Source: Alphaproteobacteria bacterium
GTDB taxonomy: Bacteria; Pseudomonadota; Alphaproteobacteria; Geminicoccales; Geminicoccaceae
Length of the DNA: 34,446 nucleotides
Reading direction: 5' to 3'
Assembly (NCBI GenBank): GCA_030431615.1
Contig: JAUIID010000031.1
Span: forward strand, 1-34,446
The translations under genes were made by a program, and so were the position numbers. Under the pieces are notes generated by a model. It was not told the DNA's origin, searched no databases, and was given only the letters and a program-made list of their open reading frames with translations. Below, piece after piece: positions 15,238 to 16,439 of the stretch. Every line of letters starts with the position of its first letter. The first letter of the stretch is position 1.

Positions 15238-15621
15238 ATGCCGAAGACAGCCAAGGACATGGTCGCCGAGGCCAACGCCGTCGTGCCCGCCATCACGCCC
15301 GCCGAGGCGAAGGCGCTGCTCGGCGACCCGAACACCGTCGTCGTCGACGTTCGCGACGCGCCCGAGGTGGCGGCGTCGGGCAAGGTCAAGGGCGCTGTCA
15401 ACATCTCGCGCGGCATGATCGAATTCCGCGCCGATCCGGCCTCGCCCTATCACGACGAAAAGCTGAGCCCGGAGAAGACCGTCATCGTCTACTGCGCCTC
15501 CGGCGGCCGCTCGGCCCTGGTCGGCAAGGCGCTGCAGGAGCTCGGCTACAAGGACGTCCGCAATCTCGGCGGCTTCAAGGGCTGGGTAGAGAGCGGCGGG
15601 GACATCGATCCGCCCGCCTGA
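15238..15621 (+). CDS. Single-domain rhodanese-like sulfurtransferase
   Basis: A 127-residue rhodanese domain with the active-site loop CASGGR (Cys86 to Arg91), which forms a persulfide and passes sulfur to an acceptor. Other family landmarks are VVDVRDAPEVAASG, GAVNISRGMIEF and VRNLGGFKGWVESGG. No signal peptide is seen, so it is cytoplasmic. AGGAAGGA lies just upstream of the ATG. Its closeness to the probable sulfite dehydrogenase operon suggests a shared role in handling reduced sulfur, for example moving sulfane sulfur. The gene is followed by a 121-bp palindrome that probably forms its 3' end. Confidence 0.92.
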   Translation: MPKTAKDMVAEANAVVPAITPAEAKALLGDPNTVVVDVRDAPEVAASGKVKGAVNISRGMIEFRADPASPYHDEKLSPEKTVIVYCASGGRSALVGKALQELGYKDVRNLGGFKGWVESGGDIDPPA

Positions 15622-15633
15622 AGCGGGCAAGAG

Positions 15634-15754
15634 AGAACGTTGCACGGCGACCGCAGACGAGGAAGGCAAGGCGATCGGCGCGCAGCGTAGCTCGTCTACG
15701 TGAGCACCGATCGTCCGCAGCCTGACGAAGTCTGCGGTTGCCGTGTGACGTTCT
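15634..15754 (+). repeat. 121-bp imperfect palindrome between convergent genes
   Basis: The outer arms are 15634-15658 and 15730-15754. All 25 positions can pair in a plus-strand transcript, 22 as Watson-Crick and 3 as G-U pairs. An inner stem (about 15671-15690 with 15696-15714) closes a 5-nt loop CTCGT, with one bulge and two mismatches, and AGGC/GCCT pairs in between. The element starts 12 nt after the rhodanese stop and runs into the stop codon of the convergent GntR gene. It has no T-run. It could be a bidirectional terminator, a 3'-end-stabilising hairpin or a copy of a dispersed palindromic repeat family; no second copy occurs in this window. Confidence 0.8.
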
Positions 15755-16439
15755 AGAGCTGGCCGAGGCCGTGGCGCTCAAGCAGCTCCACCAGCATCCG
15801 GCCGTTGCGCTGGCGGTGGGTGTGGTGAATGCGCCAGGCGGTCTCGGCGTCGCGTCGCTCGATGGCGTCGACCAGGGCGCGGTGGTCGTCGTTCGAGCTC
15901 ACCGGGCGCGGGCGCAGGCGGAGCGTCAGCTTTCGCACGCGGTGCGACTGGTCCATGAACTGCTCGATGATCGCCTTCAGCCGTTCGTTGCCGCAGGAGG
16001 CGAGGATGACCCGGTGGAAATGGTCGTCGGCCCGGGCCCAGGCATCGAGGTCGTCGGCTGTGAGCGCCTCGTCCATCTCGGTGACGGCCGCCTTGAGCTC
16101 GGCCAGGTGCTTAGGCTGCGCGCCCTCGCGGGCGATCTGGGCGGCGGCCTCCGCCTCGAGCGCCGTCAGGATCTGGTAGATCTCGCGCATGTCGTTGGCC
16201 GAGACCGGCAGCACCCGCATGCCGTGGCGCGGCCGGACGTCGATCATGCCTTCGCGGGCGAGGCGGATCAGCGCCTCGCGCACGGGCGTGCGGCTCATCT
16301 CGAGAAGGGCTGCCAGCTCCTGCTCCAGCATGATGCTGCCGGCCGGGATCTCGTTCTCGAGGATCCGGCTCTTGATCTCGCGATAGGCCCGCTCGGCGAA
16401 GGTGACGCGCCCCGGCGCCTCCTCGATGACGCTCGCCAT
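15753..16439 (-). CDS. GntR-family transcriptional regulator, FCD subfamily
   Basis: A 228-residue regulator with an N-terminal winged helix (residues about 10-75; EQELAALLEMSRTPVREALIRLAREG is the core, with GMRV closing the wing). A C-terminal all-helical FCD ligand domain carries the usual metal-site residues (Asp and His in ADDHFH, His in DDHRALV, His in RIHHTH). Such proteins usually repress catabolic operons and release DNA when a sugar acid or organic acid binds. It is the last gene of a three-gene operon, 1 nt after the dehydrogenase stop codon. The perfect palindrome at 18502-18517, in front of this operon and of TTT system 2, is its most likely operator. Confidence 0.9.
   Translation of the reverse strand: MASVIEEAPGRVTFAERAYREIKSRILENEIPAGSIMLEQELAALLEMSRTPVREALIRLAREGMIDVRPRHGMRVLPVSANDMREIYQILTALEAEAAAQIAREGAQPKHLAELKAAVTEMDEALTADDLDAWARADDHFHRVILASCGNERLKAIIEQFMDQSHRVRKLTLRLRPRPVSSNDDHRALVDAIERRDAETAWRIHHTHRQRNGRMLVELLERHGLGQL

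Follow-up and report, generated by a model that had tools for sequence, protein, structure and literature searches.

What is a 121-nt palindrome doing between two convergent genes, and why should the departures from its symmetry favour one of its strands? The DNA comes from an Alphaproteobacteria bacterium (Geminicoccales; Geminicoccaceae; assembly GCA_030431615.1, contig JAUIID010000031.1), of which positions 1 to 34,446 of the forward strand were analysed; this whole stretch of 34,446 nt is called the window here. A sequence-only reading of the locus had proposed selection on a transcript that arrives from the side of a rhodanese gene. The parts of the locus are as follows.

15238–15621, plus strand: rhodanese gene, which stops 12 nt upstream of the element.
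15634–15754, plus strand: the element (palindrome AGAACG...CGTTCT), its plus orientation being set by the conserved core.
15634–15658, plus strand: 5' outer arm, a terminal inverted repeat with a sequence private to this copy.
15656–15666, plus strand: conserved internal-loop strand, GACGAGGAAGG.
15682–15705, plus strand: central module GCAG-CGTAG-CTCGT-CTACG-TGAGC, an asymmetric internal loop and hairpin common to several families (such a hairpin is present in 110 of 112 copies).
15721–15731, plus strand: conserved internal-loop strand, CCTGACGAAGT.
15730–15754, plus strand: 3' outer arm, which pairs with 15634–15658 (22 Watson-Crick pairs, 3 G-U).
15753–15755, minus strand: stop codon TAG of the GntR gene, overlapping the right end of the element.
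15753–16439, minus strand: GntR-family regulator gene, convergent to the rhodanese gene.
15754–15755: terminal TA at the right end; the left end is GA in the window copy.

The plus-strand RNA of 15624–15764 is predicted to fold with −89.9 kcal/mol, compared with −53.9 (sd 4.0) for shuffled sequences (z −9.05; 0 of 200 shuffles as good), and the minus-strand RNA of the same positions with −78.5 kcal/mol (z −7.9). The sequence-only reading had observed that the departures from complementarity in the 25-nt arms are all G-U pairs in a plus-strand RNA, and so they are: next to the 22 Watson-Crick pairs there are exactly three others, T15641/G15747, G15642/T15746 and G15649/T15739, which are G-U in the plus RNA and A-C in the minus RNA. 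Its title extended this to every mismatch of the 121 nt and goes too far: the inner half of the palindrome contains a small central hairpin and several internal loops, and these loops, which other copies have as well, are not G-U. It was right to place the element between convergent genes and in contact with the GntR stop codon. An Rfam scan of the window stretch (E-value mode) returned nothing near its gathering score, and in a scan of 16 loci of relatives no family rose above its gathering threshold for the element, the only match being to an adjacent tRNA.

The palindrome is one of many. A plain nucleotide search of its own genome finds 14 strong copies on 14 contigs (E 3.5e-16 or better; next match 0.0066), and a search with a covariance model leads to the identical 14 places. 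The palindrome is therefore a repeat element, which is what the sequence-only reading had itself said that many dispersed copies would make it. The copies are 119–124 nt long, and their two parts behave differently: among the 12 of 14 copies compared, identity is 0.90 in the inner part and 0.58 in the outer 18+18 nt. The outer arms are private, yet paired; with each of the 14 copies in its best register, 235 of 252 positions in the outer 18 are paired (93%), 221 of them by Watson-Crick pairs. An alignment of 20 copies has 29 of 47 pairs changing on both sides in some copy, including 21 of 25 in the outer stem, and a covariation score of 0.350 against 0.144 when shuffled and at most 0.106 when slid. 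The structural alignment of the copies omits L014, L041, L044, L046 and L052, together with the weak or partial L036–L038, L048, L050, L054 and L056. Four of these, L041, L044, L046 and L052 from genome G001, form a subfamily in which the 5' strand of the core is different and longer (GGTCCAAAGTCGGCAAGATGGGCGATCGG) and the 3' strand almost unchanged. A U-tract was sought on both sides of the 14 own copies and none was found.

Two genomes of the same genus and one further Geminicoccaceae genome also carry the element, with at least seven, three and two matches. Model searches found it in at least 9 of 60 relatives at E 0.1 (G010 and G050 weakly, at E about 0.03), in at least 26 of 385 genomes of a class sample at E 0.001, and in at least 35 of 398 genomes of a phylum sample at E 0.0001, some of them outside the class; the own genome is included each time, and these counts are lower bounds because 8 to 150 candidates were scored per genome. 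The feature shared across genomes is the central hairpin, while the ends differ. The hairpin is present in 110 of 112 non-redundant copies with a G(C/G)AG-type tetranucleotide before its 5' strand (GCAG in 49, GGAG in 34), and in 98 its 3' strand is followed by TGAGC, part of which is built in because an A following the stem was required in the search for the centre. Inside the hairpin there are compensated pairs, for example C-G/T-A. The 0.9-Mb genome G185, of the same class, has 68 matches at 0.001 and 62 at 0.0001 (loci L177–L216, L359 and L360), most of its copies belonging to one almost identical family; a few G185 copies fall within open frames at least 90 codons long. For one branch, queried from G516, the named relatives amount to 33 records, on plasmids of Sphingobium, Shinella, Agrobacterium, Phyllobacterium and others, and the two plasmid relatives inspected are both between convergent genes. 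No match came from searching viral contigs with the core pattern, plasmids with the core consensus, or plasmids and phages with the G468 relative.

The ends of the element point to a partner. Of 110 copies, 35 have TA at the outer edge of the stem on both sides, compared with 9 for a control window further out, and a symmetric GC, part of GAGC ends, is as enriched at the stem edge as TA is (34 and 33 of 110 copies, with 10 and 10 for the interior controls). In G001 there is a 1068-bp TA-flanked element with matches to the HTH_Tnp_IS630 and DDE_3 domains in two frames, the inverted ends of which are TAGAACATTTTCACGCTGACCGTACAT and TAGAGCAGATTCAGGCTGACCGGAATC; the repeat copy L046 of that genome starts TAGAGCAGTTTCAGGGTGACCGGAGAC and, read from the opposite end, TAGAGCAGTTTCATGCTGACCGTATCC. 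The ends of this insertion sequence (IS) agree with those of the genome's repeat copies at 44 of 54 positions (maximum of 100 shuffles 34), and a difference between left and right ends, CCGTA versus CCGGA, is common to both. In G271, from another family, the ends of a 944-bp IS match the repeat copies of their own genome at 40 of 54 positions (maximum of 100 shuffles 36). DDE_3 is present in 12 of 26 genomes tested, and matching ends were sought at its loci in nine of the 12 (G559, G008 and G659 left out), these two being positive. Matching ends were rejected for G040, G348, G452, G000, G002, G175 and G185, where each locus stays at or below the best of 60 shuffles (of one end, on one strand) at one of its ends at least; one G348 locus reaches 19 against a shuffled maximum of 18, at a single end only. 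The three DDE_3 matches of the own genome are none of them flanked by matching ends. As no matching IS was found there, the likeness to IS630 ends holds for the element family and not for the window copy alone.

The inside of the element is another matter. A core-like stretch was sought in the G001 locus and in the insertion sequences of G001 and G271, and none was found; the idea that the interior is that of an internally deleted IS was rejected, since the core is missing from both. Many copies, including the one in the window, have no TA at one or both ends. Apparent element-free orthologous sites exist in G010 for L013 and L008, a spacer without the element in G001 is orthologous to L010, and no exact empty site with a single TA emerged among them.

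Because the arms are private yet paired, and because the ends are often flanked by TA and match IS630/Tc1-mariner insertion sequences in two other genomes, we conclude that the element is very probably a non-autonomous MITE of IS630/Tc1-mariner type. Among the closest parallels in kind is RUP of Streptococcus pneumoniae, linked to IS630-Spn1: a 107-bp intergenic repeat with IS630-family-like ends and TA targets (PMC2229807), with the same class of ends and partner as here, the likeness being one of description only. As far as the accessible part of PMC2229807 goes, no core shared between different ends and no strand-biased wobble are mentioned for RUP. The same source, to the same extent, describes ERIC and NEMIS/Correia, of ~100–200 bp, whose ends form a stem and have TA termini; their hosts are other ones, and they too are likened by description only. 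The CIR repeats of Caulobacter and Brucella are again intergenic, ~110 bp long and alphaproteobacterial (PMC2229807), but these, so far as described there, consist of two arms and a linker and carry GANTC, whereas the element is a single end-to-end stem and GANTC is absent from 13 of its 14 own copies. From what the accessible literature says of them, the Rickettsia palindromic elements (RPE) are alphaproteobacterial palindromes of ~95–150 bp that often lie inside genes, unlike ours; they are set beside it by description only, as is Bru-RS of the Rhizobiales, a repeated palindrome of 103–105 bp. RIME, also of the Rhizobiales, is placed next to Bru-RS by name only. A literature search (motif letters on both strands; palindromic repeats), with most subscription papers outside its scope, gave no description of this core.

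The one-sided wobble of the window copy proves to be common in the family. In the outer 24 columns of 91 non-redundant copies there are 83 G-U against 18 A-C, in a scoring that treats both kinds of wobble alike, and in a larger set of 112 non-redundant copies 128 against 25 (P = 7e-18), a ratio that is inflated outside the own genome because the distant copies came from a search with an RNA covariance model, in which G-U scores better than A-C. The 14 own copies came from the plain sequence search, without an RNA model, and the 12 non-redundant ones among them have 13 G-U against 3 A-C (P = 0.02); where related copies share a wobble by descent, it does not count as an independent event. The non-redundant counts omit the partial matches L201_2891 and L190_1895, and the 112-copy count further omits L356_1501, L144_1296, and L035 and L042, which are duplicates of L097 and L090. 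Over the whole length the ratio is lower (123:75; 24:28 in Geminicoccaceae), because the conserved inner loops dilute the asymmetry.

Gene context, taken outside Geminicoccaceae from the longest open frames, bears on the source of the bias. Where the left gene is sense the counts are 23:2 in the first set and 49:4 in the larger one; where both neighbours are antisense they are 12:8 (P = 0.50, no bias) and 27:8 (P = 0.002), and the two contexts differ with Fisher P = 0.014 and 0.057, respectively. Since the bias remains, if weaker, with both neighbours antisense in the larger set, a transcript from the rhodanese side is not needed. Selection on such a transcript had been suggested by the sequence-only reading, which is supported in part: the fold of one strand is favoured throughout the family (128:25), an origin in the left gene is made less likely by the 27:8 beside antisense neighbours, and a left-hand transcript may still play some part, given the unbiased 12:8 of the first set. 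Transcription-associated mutation driven by the neighbours was considered and rejected, as the bias should then reverse with both neighbours antisense and no reversal is seen in either set. Seven groups of similar copies yield 61 distinct new single-site events of the G-U and 39 of the A-C kind (P = 0.035); for the G185 family, which is young, the figures are 19 and 16, with 0.055 changes per site in stems versus 0.080 at unpaired sites. The bias is thus a property of lineages of long standing more than of every fresh copy.

Pairing is kept at orthologous loci. In six orthologous groups from two genera, with flanking genes that match on both sides, the pairs compensated on both sides number 7, 4, 1, 3, 8 and 9 and those with a broken cell 6, 7, 0, 0, 0 and 0, the latter an undercount, as these very sequences had served to derive the structure. 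Conservation of pairing at homologous loci was what the sequence-only reading had depended on, and the compensatory changes supply it. Outside the class, in family f188, the element recurs at one locus in five genomes (L260, L261, L263, L277 and L280). It lies there behind what we take to be a NIL-domain gene, with presumably a MoaD/ThiS-like small gene beside it in four of the five (right side seen), and genes that we assume to be cysteine synthase-like (five genomes) and threonine synthase-like (four) are also present. All recognisable neighbour genes of this recurrent copy are on the minus strand, and two f188 genomes have a second copy nearby. A comparison of four f188 copies shows two-sided changes in 11 of 36 pairs and a broken cell in 6; their outermost arms are too divergent to align. 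In L040 (G002) and L106 (G001) the copy adjoins an orthologous downstream gene, 87% identical; the pairing of the L106 copy looks decayed.

The element also keeps to a particular place with respect to genes. The 23 Geminicoccaceae copies lie between convergent genes in 13 cases, in tandem antisense in 4 and tandem sense in 1, with one side unresolved in 5–6 and none between divergent genes. The stop codon of the right, antisense gene is within 4 nt of the element end in 17 of 20 Geminicoccaceae cases and 38 of 115 outside the family; for the stop of the left, sense gene and the element start the figures are 5 of 15 and 5 of 83. There is a polarity here: contact between an antisense stop and the element's 3' end is much commoner than contact between a sense stop and its 5' end. 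For L002, L003 and L005 the stop is at the same position in relatives without the element, so these copies sit directly behind an old stop codon; at L010, read by hand, the stop comes three codons sooner than in G001. Were TA the target, this placement would be explained in part, for TAA and TAG stops and neither for TGA stops nor for the polarity. At L003 an ordinary intrinsic terminator, GGGCTCCCGCAAGGGAGCCCTTTTT, with a U-tract, follows the upstream gene ~25–55 nt before the element. A small-RNA study of Thalassospira (PMC6413936) gives, in its accessible part, TTCGGTGCTCACGTACTTTTAG at two T. lucentensis loci as a putative bacterial microRNA, and CGGTGCTCACGTAC of that entry agrees with the minus strand of the element centre. 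If these loci are copies, the reads come from the minus strand there, and nothing more follows. Since the entry agrees with the minus strand of the hairpin, the list, to the extent available, may include repeat-derived fragments.

Strand bias, placement and kept pairing together raise the possibility of a functional RNA in 3' untranslated regions, the plus-strand hairpin protecting the upstream mRNA or blocking antisense read-through and the copies being kept by selection. This would be compatible with a MITE, and we regard it as a serious possibility that nevertheless falls short of being probable. The wobble bias is strongest with a sense left gene (49:4 and 23:2), convergent pairs are the commonest setting in Geminicoccaceae and divergent ones absent, six orthologous groups hold compensated pairs, and a minus-strand stop so often lies at the right end; but the bias persists beside antisense neighbours, mutation in the young G185 stems is near neutral (19:16; 0.055 versus 0.080), the recognisable neighbours of the f188 recurrent copy are all on the minus strand, and the own copies are without a U-tract. 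Private arms that are almost fully paired while diverging much faster than the core could instead arise at the DNA level, if template switching or arm-to-arm conversion kept them complementary without selection on the fold. Such correction should be strand-symmetric, yet the counts are 128:25 overall and 13:3 in the own genome, whose copies owe nothing to an RNA model, and it seems improbable.

A very stable hairpin between convergent stop codons might be simply an intrinsic bidirectional terminator of the two genes. No T run follows either end, however, the 121 nt include internal loops and recur in dispersed copies, and copy L003 is preceded by a separate ordinary U-tract terminator, so that this reading is most improbable. 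Hardly any credence goes to a palindrome of REP type that owes its movement to a RAYT/Y1 transposase, or to one of the CGTC-tagged alphaproteobacterial kind, despite a CGTC on the minus strand beside a stem. The accessible part of PMC3733652 describes CGTC-tagged REPs (including RPE-4 and RPE-6) as palindromic, mostly downstream of genes and common in Alphaproteobacteria, like the element, but also as 20–40 bp long, with a stem of 8–9 bp and a CCA-like tail and without a known dedicated transposase; the element has 121 nt, its ends match IS630 in two genomes, and a search for the Y1 transposase (PF01797), which as RAYT is the partner of GTAG REPs, found none in the own genome, while the control was positive in 5 of 14 genomes. 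Two further ideas were dropped. Insertion of the core into the loop of existing terminators does not fit arms of nearly constant length whose ends match IS630 ends. The idea that the left arm was copied from the 3' end of the target gene came from GACGCTCA, which also stands at the element-free G001 site for L002, and it fails at L003 and L005.

We therefore return to the MITE. Its ends would be terminal inverted repeats, ancestrally flanked by TA and movable by an IS630-family transposase, as their kinship with insertion sequences in two other genomes suggests. Enclosed by these ends is a structured core, which is missing from the matching insertion sequences. Copies are found mostly downstream of genes, the window copy with its right end over the GntR stop, and form a long hairpin whose plus-strand fold has, on statistical grounds, been favoured, be it as RNA or as single-stranded DNA. 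In its own genome the element is probably a resident repeat, the hairpin of which would be read together with the adjacent genes and, as a side effect, may help to stabilise their 3' ends or to insulate them. Several observations count against a MITE: no IS with matching ends was found in the own genome, no exact empty site with a single TA emerged, many copies have no TA at one or both ends, GC is as enriched as TA, the insertion sequences are without the core, and retention with compensatory changes at orthologous loci exceeds the needs of a dead one. The core is shared far more widely than the ends. It is conceivable, though we offer it only tentatively and think it rather unlikely, that the core is what lasts and that its ends can be swapped: a conserved module G(C/G)AG-hairpin-TGAGC set in asymmetric internal loops, acting as plus-strand RNA or single-stranded DNA, would be a transposon satellite that acquires the ends of different IS630 transposases across Proteobacteria, with its 3' end placed at the stop of an antisense gene.

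Bacterial MITEs are usually regarded as shrunken copies of insertion sequences. Here the ends match IS630 and the inside does not, and the inside is common to many families with different ends. This raises a testable question: do some MITEs bring along a nucleic-acid structure that is itself selected? Counting one-sided wobbles is also a cheap means, applicable to palindromes in general, of asking on which strand selection acts.
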